This document shows, one piece after another, positions 11,877 to 19,402 of a stretch of 64,000 bases of DNA. Position numbers and translations under genes: made by a program. The stretch is from NCBI GenBank assembly GCA_003553795.1, contig PWFH01000026.1:1-64000 (forward strand), in the 5' to 3' direction. Under the pieces are notes generated by a model. It searched no databases. It had not been told where the DNA came from and saw nothing but the letters and a program-made list of their open reading frames with translations. Position 1 is the first letter of the stretch; every line of letters starts with the position of its first letter. The stretch comes from Egibacter sp. (GTDB lineage: Bacteria; Actinomycetota; Nitriliruptoria; Euzebyales; Egibacteraceae).

Positions 11877-12581
11877 GTGACCACCGCGGAGGCGAGCGCC
11901 CTCGAGCACGCCCTCGGCGTCGACTTCGCCGACGGGGCGCTCCTCGACCTCGCCCTCGCGCACCGCAGCTGGGCGTTCGAGGCGGGAGGCCAGCCCACCA
12001 ACGAGCGGCTGGAGTTCCTCGGCGACGCCGTCCTCGGCCTCGTCATCACCGACCGTGTCTACCGGGCGCTGCCGGAGGCGCCCGAGGGCCGGCTGGCGAA
12101 GCTCCGGGCGGCGACGGTGAGCGCGACGACGCTCGCGAGCGTCGCCCGCGGCCTCGGCGTCGGCGAGGCGGTCAAGCTCGGGCGTGGTGAGGAGCAGTCC
12201 GGGGGGCGGGACAAGGACTCGATCCTCGCCGACACCCTCGAGGCGCTCATCGGGGCGGTGTACCTCGACCGCGGGCTCGACGCGGCGACCGCGCTCGTGC
12301 ACCGCCTCTTCGACGGCATCGTCGACGAGCTCCAGAGCGCGAAGGGGGCCCTGGACTTCAAGACCGCGCTGCAGGAGCTGTCCGCGGCCGAGCTGAGCAC
12401 CCTGCCGGCCTACGAGCTCAGCGAGGAGGGACCCGACCACGAGAAGCGCTTCACCGCCGTCGTGCGCGTCGGTGGCGAGTCGCTGGGGTCGGGGCAGGGA
12501 CGCAGCAAGAAGGAGGCTGAGCAAGCCGCGGCCCGGCGGGCGCTCGACGCCCTCGCCACGCGGCCGGGCGCGGCGGAGTAG
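11877..12581 (+). CDS. rnc: Ribonuclease III
   Basis: RNase III cleaves double-stranded RNA in rRNA processing and mRNA control. The catalytic signature [13 protein letters not shown] (about residues 41-53) and the second acidic patch [20 protein letters not shown] are present. A double-stranded RNA-binding domain occupies the last 70 residues ([21 protein letters not shown]). Length is 234 residues. The GTG at 11877 lacks a Shine-Dalgarno sequence and is probably reached by coupling from rpmF. It may act on the hairpins seen before pnp in this window. Confidence 0.95.
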
Positions 12582-12650
12582 CCCCGCCGGACGCGGCGGC
12601 GCAGCACCCAGGTCAGGCACGGCGGCGGCCGTCGAGAACGGAGGAGCACG

Positions 12651-13490
12651 GTGTCCCACCTTCCCGAGGTCGAGGTCCTGCGCAAGGACCTGGAGAAAGA
12701 GGTGGTCGGCAAGCGCGTCAAGGACGTCAGCGTGAAGACCGCGAGGACCGTCGGACGTCACCGCCACCGCCCGGACTTCATCGCCGCGCTCGACGGCCGC
12801 AAGATCGAGGCCGTCCGACGCCGCGGCACCTGGCTGCTCTTCGACCTCGACGAAGGGGCGACGCTGTGCGCCCACCTCGGCGACCAGGGCGTCGTGACCC
12901 GGGAGACCGCCAAGGCCGAGTCGGGTCCGCACACCCAGGTCGTCGTGACGTTCACGACCGGTGGGGCGCTGCACCTCGTCGACCCGGAGAGGACCTCGCG
13001 GCTCTTCGTCGCGCCGACCGATGGCGTCGAGCAGCTCGAGGAGCTCGTGCCAGGTGGCATCGACCCGCTGTCGGGCACGTTCACCTGGCACGCCTTCGCG
13101 CGCTACCTCGCCGGCCGCCACGCGGCGCTCAAGGCCCTGCTCGTCGACGAGAGCTTCATCCTCGGGCTCGGCGACCTCTACGCCGACGAGATCCTGTGGT
13201 CGGCGGGCCTCGCGCCCGACCGTCGCTCCGATGCGCTGTCGAGCCAGGAGGTCCGGCGGCTCTACCGGGCGCTCTTCGAGGTGCTCTACGAGGCGATCAA
13301 GCAAGGCGGCACCGCCGACCTCGACGCCGAGGGCGAGCACACCGACCTCTTCGGCGAGCCCGGCGACTACGGCTCGCACCTCAACGTCCACGGGCGGGCG
13401 GGCGAGCCGTGCCCGCGCTGCCGGCGTCCCGTGGTCCACACCGAGGTCGAGGGCGTCGGCGCCTACCACTGCTCGTCCTGCCAGGGCTGA
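12651..13490 (+). CDS. Fpg/Nei-fold zinc-finger protein lacking catalytic residues
   Basis: A 279-residue homologue of formamidopyrimidine-DNA glycosylase (MutM/Fpg) in the usual rnc-smc neighbourhood. The fold is clear: LPEVEVLRKDL at the start, HLG, a GLGDLYADEILWSAGLAPDR helix-two-turn-helix, and a C4 zinc finger (C254, C257, C274, C277). The catalytic N-terminal Pro-Glu is Ser2-His3. The lysine of the RRxKYL motif is Thr60, the HLGM Met is Asp78, the conserved Asn of GVGNIYA is Asp175, and the zinc-finger Arg is missing. GGAGGAG 4 nt before the GTG supports this start. It is probably a DNA-binding non-glycosylase, or an enzyme with a changed mechanism. The name mutM should not be transferred without a test. 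Confidence 0.85.
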   Translation: MSHLPEVEVLRKDLEKEVVGKRVKDVSVKTARTVGRHRHRPDFIAALDGRKIEAVRRRGTWLLFDLDEGATLCAHLGDQGVVTRETAKAESGPHTQVVVTFTTGGALHLVDPERTSRLFVAPTDGVEQLEELVPGGIDPLSGTFTWHAFARYLAGRHAALKALLVDESFILGLGDLYADEILWSAGLAPDRRSDALSSQEVRRLYRALFEVLYEAIKQGGTADLDAEGEHTDLFGEPGDYGSHLNVHGRAGEPCPRCRRPVVHTEVEGVGAYHCSSCQG

Positions 13491-13502: not shown

Positions 13503-14171
13503 TCAGAACAGGCGCGCGTCGACCCAGAGCGTCGCGGCGACCGCGAGGACGCCGGCGGCTGGCGTGAGCCACCACGGCAGCGCGGGTGGCGGCAGGCCGA
13601 TGCGGGCGAGCCGACGCCGGCGCCCCTGCGACCAGCCGGCGCCCCAGCCAGCGACGAGGCCGACGAGCTGGGCGAAGCCGGTCGGTACGCCCAGGAGCCG
13701 CGCGGCGGCGAGGGCGACGCCGATGCCGGCGAGCGAGCCGAGCATGGCCAGGACGAGCCACTGCAGCATCGCGACGGCCTCGGCGGCGGAGCGTCGGGCG
13801 CGCAACGCGGCGCGCTCGGCGGCGCGGCGCACCAGCCGTCGCCGTCGCGACCACCAGCGACCCGCCCAGCGTCCCGCGTCGCCGACCATCTCCTCCCAGC
13901 GACGCGCGAGGTCCTCCTGGGCCGCCCGCGAGGCCGTCGCGCGCTCGCGCCGCAGCGCGTCGTAGGCCGCCCGGGACTCCGGGTCGCGGACGAGGCCGTA
14001 GGCGACGTTGATGCGCTGCACGCGCCGGGTCGCCGCGGCCCGCTGCTCGGGGGCGACGAGGTCGGGATGGTGCCGGCGCACGAGGCGGCGGTGCGCGGCC
14101 TTGAGCTCGGCCTGCGAGGCGGTCGGCGCGACCCCGAGCACCGCGTAGGCGTCGAGGTCGGCCTCAGCCAT
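13503..14171 (-). CDS. Membrane-anchored J-domain (DnaJ-like) protein
   Basis: A 222-residue protein with an N-terminal J domain (about residues 5-70) that keeps the HPD motif (RRHHPDL), so it should stimulate an Hsp70 ATPase. A basic linker follows, then two or three hydrophobic helices in the C-terminal 100 residues, placing the J domain on the cytoplasmic face. There is no Gly/Phe or zinc-finger region. The start overlaps the end of the upstream hydrolase gene by 8 nt, so the pair is translationally coupled. The partner Hsp70 and client are unknown. Confidence 0.85.
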   Translation of the reverse strand: MAEADLDAYAVLGVAPTASQAELKAAHRRLVRRHHPDLVAPEQRAAATRRVQRINVAYGLVRDPESRAAYDALRRERATASRAAQEDLARRWEEMVGDAGRWAGRWWSRRRRLVRRAAERAALRARRSAAEAVAMLQWLVLAMLGSLAGIGVALAAARLLGVPTGFAQLVGLVAGWGAGWSQGRRRRLARIGLPPPALPWWLTPAAGVLAVAATLWVDARLF

Positions 14172-15189
14172 CGGCGCGGCGGGCGTGCACGTCGGCGATG
14201 GCCTCCCGCAGCACGGGCACGACGAGCTCGGGCTTGGCGAGGTGGCCGTCGTGGTCGACGTCGACGTCGTAGCGCCGGGCGGTGGGGATGCGCGCGGCCA
14301 GCGCGGCCTGCGAGTCGGGTGGCACGAGCCGGTCACGGGTCGAGCGCACGACGGCCGTCGGCACGTCGACGGTCGCGAGCCACCCCCGTGCGTCGTAGCG
14401 GCCGAGCTCGCGACCGGCCTCGGCGATGTCCTCGGGGCTACCGCGGGCGAACTCGGCGATCATCCAGCCGAGGCGGTCGAGGACCTCCCTGGGGGTCTCG
14501 CGGGTGATCATCCGGGAGACCTGCAGCGGCAGCCGTCCGGCGGCCTGGGCGAGCAGCAGGCGCTCGAGGGTCTGGCGGGGGACGAGGCGCAGCGCGAGCT
14601 GGAGCGCGCCCATCGAGCGCCACAGGGCCCGCCGCGCGGGCGTCTCGCCGAAGCTCGCTGCCGTCGACACGAGCACGAGCCCGGCGACGACGTCGGGATG
14701 GCGCTGCCAGACGAGCTGGGCGACGGGCCCGCCGAGGGAGTGGCCGAGCAGGATGACCGGGCCGGTCTCGAGCGCGGTGCACAGCGCCGCGACGTCGTCG
14801 GCGACGTCGGCGAGGCGGAAGGGCTCGGGCGGGCGCGGGGCGCGGCCGTGGCCGCGGAGGTCGACGGCGAGCACGTGGGCGTCGACGGCGAGGGTCTCGA
14901 GGATCCGCCACCAGTAGACGTCGGCGGGGTACATCCATCCGTGGACGAGGACGAGCGTCGGCCCGCGCCCGCGTCGGCCCGCCTCGCGGACCACCTGCTC
15001 CCCGCGCGCGCCGAGGTCGACGACGCGCGCGCCCGGCAGCGGCGGCGGCGTGGCGTCGAGGCTGTCGGGGGGCGCAGACCGCGGGCGCGAGGCCGCCCAC
15101 AGCAGCGCGGCCACGGCGAGGGGGGCGGCCCAGCCGAGCCGGCGCGACGGGGCGGCGCGTGGGCCTCGCGAGGGGGAGGGCGGGGACAT
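14164..15189 (-). CDS. Membrane-anchored alpha/beta-fold hydrolase
   Basis: A 341-residue alpha/beta hydrolase. An N-terminal hydrophobic stretch (about residues 19-35) anchors it to the membrane. The fold is shown by LVLVHGWMYPADVYWW (oxyanion region), the nucleophile elbow GHSLGG, and the C-terminal His in VDHDGHL, with a probable acid at STRDRLVPP. The substrate is not predictable. Its promoter looks leaderless: TACCCT then 6 nt then ATG. Operon with the J-domain gene. Confidence 0.85.
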   Translation of the reverse strand: MSPPSPSRGPRAAPSRRLGWAAPLAVAALLWAASRPRSAPPDSLDATPPPLPGARVVDLGARGEQVVREAGRRGRGPTLVLVHGWMYPADVYWWRILETLAVDAHVLAVDLRGHGRAPRPPEPFRLADVADDVAALCTALETGPVILLGHSLGGPVAQLVWQRHPDVVAGLVLVSTAASFGETPARRALWRSMGALQLALRLVPRQTLERLLLAQAAGRLPLQVSRMITRETPREVLDRLGWMIAEFARGSPEDIAEAGRELGRYDARGWLATVDVPTAVVRSTRDRLVPPDSQAALAARIPTARRYDVDVDHDGHLAKPELVVPVLREAIADVHARRADG

Positions 15190-15739: not shown

Positions 15740-15850
15740 GCCGCGCCGTCGCTCCCCGATGATCGAAAGGCCGTGCCGCATGTCGTCGCGCGCTCCCGCG
15801 GTGCGTCGCCGTGCGGCGCCGGCGTGCGCGGCAGCGCCCGGGAGGCCGTC

Positions 15851-18800
15851 GTGTACCTGAGCTCGGTCATCCTCCACGGCTTCAAGTCCTTCGCCGACAA
15901 GACCGTGCTCGACCTCGAGCGGGGCATCACCGTCGTCGTCGGCCCGAACGGCTCGGGCAAGTCCAACGTCGTCGACGCGCTCACCTGGGTGCTCGGCAGC
16001 CACAGTGCGAAGTCGCTGCGCGGTGGGCAGATGGCCGATGTGATCTTCGCCGGCTCCCCGGAGCGGCGCGGCTTCGGGCGCGCGAGCGTCGAGATCGTCA
16101 TCGACAACGCCGCCGGCACCCTGCCGGTCGACTACAGCGAGGTGCGCGTCAGCCGGTCGATGTTCGCCTCGGGCGAGACCGAGTACGCGATCAATGGCGA
16201 GGCCTGCCGTCAGCTCGACATCGCCGAGCTGCTCAGCGACACCGGCCTCGGCCGCGAGCACCACCAGATCGTCGGCCAGGGCCGGCTCGAGGCCATCCTC
16301 TCCGCCCGTCCCGAGGACCGCCGCGCCTTCATCGAGGAGGCCGCGGGCATCCTCAAGCACCGGCGGCGCAAGGAGCGCAGCCTGCGCAAGCTCGCCCAGA
16401 CCGAGGCGCACCTCGAGCGGCTCACCGACGTGCTCGGTGAGGTCAAGCGCAGCCTCAAGCCGCTCGAGCGCCAGGCCCGCCTCGCCGAGCAGCACGAGTC
16501 GCTGTCTACCGAGCTCGCCGGGGTGCGGCGCGCCCGCGCGCTGCGCGAGCTCGACGGGTTGCTCGTGCGCCTCGACGGCGAGCGCGAGGAGCGCGCGAGC
16601 GCCGACGCCGCGCTCGCCGGCCTCGAGGAGCGCGCGCGGGCGGCCCGCGAGGAGGAGGCCGGCGTCGAGCAGGCCGTTGCCGCCCTCGCGCCACAGGTCG
16701 AGGCCGCCGCGGCGACGCACTTCCGCCTCGCCAACCTCGTCGAGCGCTACCGCGGCCTCGAGGCGCGGATCGAGGAGCGCCGGCGCGGGCTCTCCGAGGC
16801 CGTCGAGGAGCCGGTCGCCGGGCGCGACCCCGAGGCGCTGCGGGAGGAGGCCGTCGAGGAGCGTCTCCGCCTCTCCACCCTCGAGAGCGAGGTCGACGAC
16901 GCCGCGCGCACGCTCGAGGAGGCCACCGCCGAGCGCGAGGAGGCCGAGCGGCGTCGCCGGGCCCACGAGCAGGCCGCCGCCGCCGAGGCGCGGCGGCGCA
17001 ACGAGGCACGCGAGCGCCACCTGCGCTGGGAGGGGGAGGTCGCCGCGCTGCGCAGCGCCCTCGCGCAGGCCGCGAGCGAGCAGGGGCGCCTCGCGAGCCA
17101 GATCGACGGGTTGACCGCCCGCCGCGGCGAGCTCGCCCGCGACGTCGACGCCGTCCAGGCGGAGATCCAGCGCCTCGACACCGAGGCCCCGGAGGTCGCC
17201 GAGCGCCACGCCGCCGCCGAGGCGCTCGTGCGCCGCCGCGCGGACGCCGCCGCCGAGGTCGCCCGCGAGGAGCGCGACCTCGAGCGTCGTCGGGCCTCGC
17301 TCGAGGCCCGCGCCGACGCGCTCCGCGCCGCCTCCGAGGAGGCCACCGGTGGGCAGGCCGCGCTGCTCGAGGCCGTCGATGCCGGCCGGGTCGCCGGGAT
17401 CCGGGGGCCGCTCGCCGAGCAGATGCGCGTCGCCGACGGCATGGCGCAGGCGGTCGCCGCCGCGCTCGGCGCGCTCGGCGACGCCCTCGTCGCCGACTCC
17501 GCGCGGGCCGCGGCGGGCGCGGTCGGCTTCGTGCGCGAGGAGGGCTCGGGGCGCGTGCTCCTGCTCGCCGCGGGCGCCCCGTCGCCGCCGCGCGACGCCG
17601 AGCGCGACGCCCGCCTCGCCGCCGAGCGGGCGAGGCCGCTCATCGAGGCGCTCGAGGCCGACGGCGAGGTCCTCGCCGGGCTCGCCGCCGCCCTCGCCGA
17701 CGTCTATGCCGTCGGGGAGCACGAGACGGCCTGCCGCCTCGCCGAGGCCGAGCCCGGCTGCGCGTTCGTCACCCCCAGGGGCGAGCTCGCCGGCGCCCTC
17801 GGCTACGCCGGCGGATCGGCGGCGCCCTCGAGCGCGGTCGTCTCGCGGGCCGCCGCCGAGCAGGCCGAGGCGGAGCTCGAGGAGGTCGGCCGGGAGCTCG
17901 CAGTGGTGCACCGTCGCGTTGGCGACGCCGACCGTGAGCTCGAGGCCGCCCGCGGCGAGCTCGACGCCGCGACCGCCGCCCTGCAGGAGTCCGACGCGGC
18001 GATCACCGCCGCCGCCGAGCGCCTTGGCCGGCTGCGCAAGGAGCTCGCCGCCGCCGAGCGCCAGCTCGCCGAGCGCGAGGCCGAGGCGGGCGAGCTCGAG
18101 GGCACGATCGCCGAGCGCCGCGACCGACTCGAGGTCCTCGAGGCGCGTGGTGCCGACGATCTACCGCCCGACGACGCCGAGGAGGGCCCCGACCTCGAGG
18201 CCGAGCGCCTCGATGACGCCCTCACCCGGGCGCGCGAGGCCGAGGTGCAGGCACGGCTCGAGGCGAGCGCGGCCACCCAGCGGCGCAACGAGCTCGCCCG
18301 GCGCATCGACGCCCTCGTCGAGGAGGCCCAGGCCGTCGAGGCCCAGGTCGCCGAGCGTGAGCGCCGTCGCGAGGCGCGGCTCGCCGGTATCCGCCGCTGC
18401 GGGGAGCTGCGCGCCGTGGCCGTCGAGGGGCTCGCCCGTGCGGAGCGCTCGCTCGCCGAGGCCGCGAGCGAGCGTGGCCGCCTCGAGGAGGCCCGCGCCG
18501 GTCGGCAGGGTGAGCTCGGCGTGCTGCGGGCCCGCCTGCGCGAGGTCGAGGCCGAGCTCACCGAGGCGCGCGACGCCCGACACCGTGAGGACCTCGCCCG
18601 GCGCGAGCTCGAGCTCGCCGCCGAGGAGGTCCGCCGTCGCCTCGTCGAGGACCTCGGCGTCGAGCCGGACGCGGCGCTCGCCGAGGCGCGCGAGGCCGGC
18701 GAGGATGGCCCCCTCGCCGGCGGGGACGACGCCGACGCCGCGCTGGCCGAGGAGGAGCAGCGCCTCGCCCGCAAGCTCAACCTCCTCGGCGCGGTGAACC

Positions 18801-19402
18801 CGCACGCCCAGCGCGAGCACGCCGAGCTCTCCGAGCGCCACGACTTCCTCGAGTCCGAGCTCGCCGACGTCCGCCGCTCCCGCGCCGACCTCGCGAAGGT
18901 CATCGACGCCGTCGACGGCCGCATCCGCAGCGTCTTCGCCGAGGCCTTCCACGACGTCGCCGAGGCCTTCGCCGAGCTCTTCCCCCGCCTCTTCCCCGGC
19001 GGCGAGGGTCGTCTCGTGCTCACCGACCCCGACGACCTCCTCGACACCGGCGTCGAGGTCGAGGCCCGCCCGCCGGGCAAGCGGGTCAAGCGCCTCTCGC
19101 TGCTCTCCGGCGGGGAGCGCAGCCTCACCGCCCTCGCGATCCTCTTCGCGATCTTCCGGGCGCGTCCCTCGCCGTTCTACGTCCTCGACGAGGTCGAGGC
19201 GGCGCTCGACGACGTCAACCTCCAGCGCTTCCTCACCGTCGTCGCGGAGTTCCGGGAGACGAGCCAGCTCATCCTCGTCACCCACCAGAAGCGCACGATG
19301 GAGGTCGCCGACCTCCTCTACGGCGTGTCGATGCACTCGAGCGGTGTCTCGCGGGTGATCTCCCAGCGCATGGGCGAGCAACCCAGCGCCGCCGCGAGCT
19401 GA
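15851..19402 (+). CDS. smc: Chromosome segregation ATPase SMC
   Basis: SMC forms the condensin-like complex with ScpA and ScpB that organises the chromosome. The 1183-residue protein has the N-terminal Walker A motif GPNGSGKSNVVDALTWVLG, a first long coiled coil (about 170-490), a hinge (about 500-650), a second coiled coil to about 1010, and a C-terminal head with the ABC signature LSLLSGGERSLTALAILFA and Walker B FYVLDEVEAALDD. The GTG at 15851 is fixed by GGAGG with 5-nt spacing. A 26-codon reading frame preceded by GAAAGG ends across this start codon. Confidence 0.96.
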   Translation: MYLSSVILHGFKSFADKTVLDLERGITVVVGPNGSGKSNVVDALTWVLGSHSAKSLRGGQMADVIFAGSPERRGFGRASVEIVIDNAAGTLPVDYSEVRVSRSMFASGETEYAINGEACRQLDIAELLSDTGLGREHHQIVGQGRLEAILSARPEDRRAFIEEAAGILKHRRRKERSLRKLAQTEAHLERLTDVLGEVKRSLKPLERQARLAEQHESLSTELAGVRRARALRELDGLLVRLDGEREERASADAALAGLEERARAAREEEAGVEQAVAALAPQVEAAAATHFRLANLVERYRGLEARIEERRRGLSEAVEEPVAGRDPEALREEAVEERLRLSTLESEVDDAARTLEEATAEREEAERRRRAHEQAAAAEARRRNEARERHLRWEGEVAALRSALAQAASEQGRLASQIDGLTARRGELARDVDAVQAEIQRLDTEAPEVAERHAAAEALVRRRADAAAEVAREERDLERRRASLEARADALRAASEEATGGQAALLEAVDAGRVAGIRGPLAEQMRVADGMAQAVAAALGALGDALVADSARAAAGAVGFVREEGSGRVLLLAAGAPSPPRDAERDARLAAERARPLIEALEADGEVLAGLAAALADVYAVGEHETACRLAEAEPGCAFVTPRGELAGALGYAGGSAAPSSAVVSRAAAEQAEAELEEVGRELAVVHRRVGDADRELEAARGELDAATAALQESDAAITAAAERLGRLRKELAAAERQLAEREAEAGELEGTIAERRDRLEVLEARGADDLPPDDAEEGPDLEAERLDDALTRAREAEVQARLEASAATQRRNELARRIDALVEEAQAVEAQVAERERRREARLAGIRRCGELRAVAVEGLARAERSLAEAASERGRLEEARAGRQGELGVLRARLREVEAELTEARDARHREDLARRELELAAEEVRRRLVEDLGVEPDAALAEAREAGEDGPLAGGDDADAALAEEEQRLARKLNLLGAVNPHAQREHAELSERHDFLESELADVRRSRADLAKVIDAVDGRIRSVFAEAFHDVAEAFAELFPRLFPGGEGRLVLTDPDDLLDTGVEVEARPPGKRVKRLSLLSGGERSLTALAILFAIFRARPSPFYVLDEVEAALDDVNLQRFLTVVAEFRETSQLILVTHQKRTMEVADLLYGVSMHSSGVSRVISQRMGEQPSAAAS

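Follow-up and report, generated by a model that had tools for sequence, protein, structure and literature searches.

A gene directly downstream of rnc in Egibacter sp. encodes a MutM pseudoenzyme, a member of the Fpg/MutM family by descent that, as judged from its sequence and its relatives, is no glycosylase and has probably been retained for a non-catalytic role, with the binding of a partner as the probable form of that role. The gene lies on a 64,000-nucleotide stretch of DNA (the window) from a 3.1-Mb metagenome assembly (contig 155 there), whose closest public relatives are Nitriliruptorales metagenome-assembled genomes (MAGs), a good number of which derive from sediment; on this basis we assign it to the actinobacterial class Nitriliruptoria. 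The features on which the argument rests are as follows.

11877 to 12581, forward strand: rnc (RNase III), directly upstream of the MutM pseudoenzyme gene
12640 to 12646, forward strand: Shine-Dalgarno sequence GGAGGAG, separated by 4 nt from the GTG start, read directly from the DNA
12651 to 13490, forward strand: coding sequence of the MutM pseudoenzyme, 279 amino acids plus stop, GTG start
12654 to 12659, forward strand: codons of Ser2-His3, where MutM has Pro2-Glu3
12828 to 12830, forward strand: Thr60, aligned with MutM Lys60 (codon position computed from the start of the coding sequence)
12882 to 12884, forward strand: Asp78, aligned with the void-filling Met77 of MutM
12987 to 12995, forward strand: Glu113-Arg114-Thr115, aligned with the Arg112-x-Phe114 intercalation loop of MutM
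13173 to 13175, forward strand: Asp175 in the H2TH turn, aligned with MutM Asn174
13242 to 13304, forward strand: helix 198-218 with the clade-specific motif QExRRLYRAxxE, common to dead and active rnc-locus MutMs
13410 to 13487, forward strand: zinc finger Cys254/257/274/277 with Arg256 and Arg258; MutM Arg264 is Val269 here
15773 to 19402, forward strand: smc, as the longest open reading frame (the real start is possibly further in)

Membership in the family is clear from the domains and the fold. The window protein matches the Pfam models Fapy_DNA_glyco (86.2 bits, cut-off 25.5) and H2TH (72.4 bits, cut-off 34.7), its closest sequence matches in the PDB are MutM proteins (E 6e-45), and an AlphaFold2 model (mean pLDDT 81, with residues 220-248 poor) matches MutM structures in Foldseek with E 6e-26 and probability 1.00. 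All four Cys ligands of the C4 zinc finger are present, although they are gone in some relatives. Thus the fold and finger that the original prediction described are indeed kept. The window protein also passes TIGR00577, the NCBI curated fpg equivalog model, with 205.8 bits (cut-off 203.3), so that automatic annotation would label the pseudoenzyme as a working glycosylase; those other dead members that were scanned score lower than this cut-off.

The residues of the active enzyme are a different matter. Alignment to Bacillus stearothermophilus (Bst) MutM, which also serves as the reference for numbering, reproduced each replacement that had been listed beforehand: the N-terminal Pro2 and Glu3 are Ser2 and His3, the catalytic Lys60 is Thr60, the void-filling Met77 is Asp78, the phosphate-binding Asn174 is Asp175 and the zinc-finger Arg264 is Val269. 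Two further void-filling residues are replaced as well, Arg112 by Glu113 and Phe114 by Thr115, which the original prediction had not mentioned. Its wording that every catalytic position is changed is nevertheless slightly too strong, since Glu6, Glu8, Arg57, Gly59, Lys161, Gly172/Gly174 and Tyr177 are kept. The missing Pro does not arise from a misplaced start, which proved as firmly set as had been claimed: the in-frame stretch upstream, which begins at 12582, after the stop, and reads PRRTRRRSTQVRHGGGRRERRST, holds no start codon that would restore Pro-Glu. Because the orthologues of the whole class lack the same set and a canonical mutM is present elsewhere in the genome (both below), the loss of base-excision chemistry is strongly supported, and we would expect the purified window protein to show no catalysis in vitro.

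The position of the gene had been described as rnc-mutM-smc, of which the first half holds. The gene order is coaD, a YceD protein gene, rnc, the pseudoenzyme gene, a DnaJ-domain protein gene and an alpha/beta hydrolase gene (both on the reverse strand) and then smc, which is therefore not adjacent. The DnaJ-domain and hydrolase genes (13503-15189, reverse strand) overlap by a few bases, and similar genes lie opposite at other loci (DnaJ in L005 and L006, hydrolase in L118 and L119). Of 55 related loci checked, 53 have an rnc gene upstream in the same orientation, and the two that lack it (L114, L115) carry MutMs of other lineages. Because active MutMs of the phylum occupy the same place, the rnc-locus position is inherited and gives no pointer to function by itself. 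A PADLOC search returned no match, so an association of the pseudoenzyme gene with defence is unsupported.

Chance or assembly error as the origin of the divergent MutM can be rejected, given a 94% identical orthologue (L005) in a second assembly and conservation throughout the class. We examined 66 genomes of the class Nitriliruptoria (Actinomycetota), most of them MAGs, and found an Fpg homologue in all 66. Among the 33 high-quality genomes, every one carries a dead copy free of internal stops and 32 also carry a canonical-type MutM; likewise, all class genomes at least 90% complete have a divergent rnc-type copy, and all but one (G025) a canonical-type copy in addition. The search for orthologues showed that the same residues are missing in the whole class: the six contact residues (K60, M77, R112, F114, N174 and R264) are absent as a set, although individual ones persist in places (for instance Lys60, in 4 of the 68 dead rows, and Asn174, in a single row). 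Position 2 is Ser or Thr in families f1-f3, with one exception (L038), and the N-terminus of the large family f5 is Met-Leu-Glu-Leu-Pro-Glu, again with a single departure (L071, Met-Pro-Glu). Beyond the class, dead copies are found in families f6, f74/f70/f66, f17 and f51. Two loci of f17 (L085, L101) have a further Fpg-like gene (MPELPELDVLAENLA...), whose contact columns read K-L-G-Q-N-R; it follows rnc and precedes the dead MutM, in the same orientation.

The genome of the window contains three other Fpg/Nei genes, of which two are of the MPEG type and one is the canonical mutM that had been suggested as a thing to look for. This gene (L001) starts with MPELPEVE and keeps all catalytic residues, and therefore the repair of oxidised purines need not rest on the pseudoenzyme gene. 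The second copies fetched have the full set of six contact residues, except for two divergent ones (L142, L161).

In a tree built with the catalytic columns removed, dead and active rnc-locus copies form one clade (support 100/99), which includes the rnc-locus MutMs of other families of the phylum, some fully intact and others dead. Two dead groups are nested inside active ones (support 97/97 and 98/88), and the dead state requires three to four changes, with none of the 200 bootstrap trees requiring only one. The catalytic set was thus probably lost at least three times in the rnc-locus clade, a conclusion that is well supported, if not proven. A single origin of all dead copies is not the best tree and is absent from the 200 bootstrap trees, but an AU test on a larger, quick tree does not formally reject a single dead clade (p 0.21).

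Loss of the catalytic set goes together with possession of a second MutM. Among 45 rnc-locus copies, 25 of 27 dead ones have an intact canonical MutM from another clade beside them in the genome, versus 0 of 18 active ones (Fisher 1e-10, with related genomes counted separately); in this count, the divergent Fpg-like second copies of two active-copy genomes (L161 in G316 and L142 in G071) were scored as not canonical. Three of three phylogenetically independent pairs agree with the pairing of a dead copy and a second MutM, a number too small for significance. The two dead copies without a canonical MutM come from G287, which is 68% complete, and from G025, a 2.1-Mb genome in ten contigs with a completeness of 96%. 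In the latter the dead MutM (L117, G025:C3:82000-90000), which itself lacks the zinc cysteines, lies directly before smc, and no other Fpg/Nei N-terminal domain was found in this assembly, whose completeness is high but not full. With the caution that a 96% complete assembly demands, we regard G025 as the most telling single genome.

Although their active site is lost, dead copies experience purifying selection as strong as that on active ones. The dN/dS ratio between the window gene and its 94% identical orthologue is 0.154, compared with 0.152 for the canonical pair from the same two genomes, and it is 0.06-0.11 for the closest other pairs of dead copies. Some segments, such as LPEVEVLRKDLEKEVVGKR and QEVRRLYRA, are near-invariant, and family-wide structural residues are also kept. 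Away from the active site, D138, W146, D166, E200, R202, R206, R256 and R258 are shared by the dead and the active rnc copies; all of these eight except R256, which is usually present there, are rare in canonical MutMs. The zinc cysteines have been lost in seven rows from three groups of dead MutM (L118, L117, L104, L098, L108, L067 and L020), but R256 and R258 survive in all seven of the rnc-clade rows without them. Such clade-specific residues may mark an interaction surface, or they may form internal salt bridges of the fold of this clade.

The dead copies have also become acidic. For the two groups of the class the median pI values, 5.2 and 5.8, lie below those of active rnc copies (9.3) and canonical MutMs (9.9), and when copies are compared within a genome, the dead one has the lower value in 27 of 28 cases. 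Asp or Glu account for 31% of the substitutions at the six contact columns versus 9% at the others (column permutation p 0.016). We read this shift as a sign of selection against gripping DNA, or at least of the absence of selection for it.

The acidic shift bears most directly on the possibility, raised in the original prediction, that the protein recognises damage or binds DNA in a structural role, without catalysis. In the manner of the alkyltransferase-like (ATL) proteins, it would then bind lesions or bent DNA and recruit other repair. The retained fold and H2TH domain, and in most cases the zinc finger, would fit such a protein. Dead copies still have the glycines of the H2TH turn, Arg57, Tyr177 and, in many cases, Lys161, and therefore some DNA binding is still conceivable, as is binding to RNA. 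Moreover, mycobacterial Nei2 guards against psoralen crosslinks without a need for AP lyase activity (PMC11323726), so that Fpg/Nei proteins can act without that chemistry. However, the window protein has a net charge of about -9, versus +7 for its canonical paralogue, the phosphate-binding and intercalating residues K60, R112, F114, N174 and R264 are gone, the enrichment in Asp and Glu falls exactly on the contact columns and the HLGM loop itself is lost in f5. These properties lower the likelihood of the earlier suggestion; the pseudoenzyme is probably not a damage sensor, and we consider this role unlikely.

The regular company of a second MutM raises the possibility that the dead copy is a regulatory subunit of the canonical enzyme, by analogy with the trypanosome AdoMet decarboxylase, which is activated by a catalytically dead paralogue (PMC5201418). 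Both copies are present in almost all class genomes, dead copies elsewhere in the phylum are nearly always accompanied by an intact MutM, and the opposite charges of the two proteins would fit a complex. Against this, G025 has a dead copy and no canonical MutM, and the clade-specific residues are also found in active rnc copies of genomes without a second MutM, which makes a regulatory subunit a very unlikely explanation.

A still active enzyme, in which the N-terminal amine of Ser or Thr replaces that of Pro and acts on another substrate, appears more improbable again. Position 2 is indeed Ser or Thr, from which Met would be removable, in nearly all members of f1-f3, and NEIL3 has Val at that position (PMC11323726). 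Yet the sister family begins with Met-Leu-Glu and exposes no small residue, the phosphate-holding Asn174 and Arg264 are missing too, and Lys60 is gone, the equivalent K51A substitution in mycobacterial Nei2 having abolished both lyase and glycosylase activity (PMC11323726); action on another substrate, as the original prediction had allowed, is for this last reason unlikely. Finally, gene decay, with the copy surviving by chance or through its operon position, is hardly tenable as an explanation, for although loss of catalysis beside a second MutM is the usual setting for gene decay, the gene is intact in all 33 high-quality class genomes, its dN/dS equals that of the canonical paralogue and it has near-invariant segments.

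We therefore return to a pseudoenzyme whose retention would rest on a non-catalytic role, probably the binding of a partner. In the course of events that we propose, a vertically inherited rnc-locus MutM would have come to share its genome with a second, canonical MutM of another clade able to excise 8-oxoG and Fapy lesions. Given that second enzyme, the rnc-locus copy could have dropped both its glycosylase/lyase chemistry and its DNA-clamping contacts, while the fold and the clade-specific residues would have been kept by a second, non-catalytic job. Both the existence of such a function and its action through partner binding are inferred. The likeliest job would be to bind a partner protein, or with lower likelihood a structured nucleic acid, and the contact would involve one face of helix 198-218 (Q199, E200, R202, R203, R206, E210) together with the zinc-knuckle pair R256/R258. 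A broader proposal, to which we give somewhat less than an even chance, is that the rnc-locus MutM lineage of Actinomycetota may always have had this second function besides base excision, and that it was exposed by at least three independent losses of chemistry after another MutM took over and by one reduced genome with the dead protein only. If a retained function is the correct reading, a very well studied repair enzyme has an unnoticed moonlighting role, and nature supplies several separation-of-function versions of it, which makes the question directly testable.

A different change of the N-terminus is seen at the same locus in families f12, f48 and f59 (L091, L096, L163-L182), in which the Pro2 codon is deleted. 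The gene starts with ATG or GTG followed by GAG, so that the N-terminus is Met1-Glu2-Leu-Pro-Glu in all 22 loci, and in L177, L179, L180 and L181 the codon just ahead of the start is an in-frame stop, which shows that Pro2 is truly gone. All six contact residues are kept in L091 and L096, the two that were aligned in full, and in 10 of 13 genomes of this type the search turned up no second MutM-like gene with a similar score. Since an initial Met followed by Glu generally stays on the protein, the amine of Met1 would take the place of that of Pro2, and these proteins are possibly Met1-amine glycosylases.

In the open-licence literature on catalytically dead MutM paralogues we found Nei2, Fpg2 and AlkD2 but no description of the dead rnc-locus clade. 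With the active Fpg/MutM glycosylases (TIGR00577, PF01149+PF06831) the window protein shares its fold, its length, the N-terminal LPEVE helix, the H2TH domain, the C4 finger and an rnc-linked position as in other Actinomycetota, but it lacks Pro2-Glu3 and all six of the chemical and DNA-contact residues tested, and it is acidic rather than basic. Mycobacterial Nei2 (PMC11323726) has the Fpg/Nei fold and a role in vivo that is independent of AP lyase chemistry; unlike the window protein, it has Pro2 and Lys51 and is active both as a lyase and as a glycosylase. Mycobacterial Fpg2 (Rv0944) is a degenerate second Fpg copy in an actinobacterium. It is N-terminally truncated in M. tuberculosis and a pseudogene in M. 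leprae, while M. smegmatis and M. avium have it at full length (PMC2734929), but in mycobacteria the rnc-linked copy is the active Fpg1 (PMC2734929). AlkD2 of Streptococcus mutans is a divergent glycosylase paralogue that co-occurs with an active one, excises no bases and binds DNA weakly (PMC4433238). The window protein likewise has an intact paralogue beside it and is under purifying selection, although AlkD2 has an unrelated, HEAT-like repeat fold and misses a DNA-binding helix rather than the whole catalytic set.
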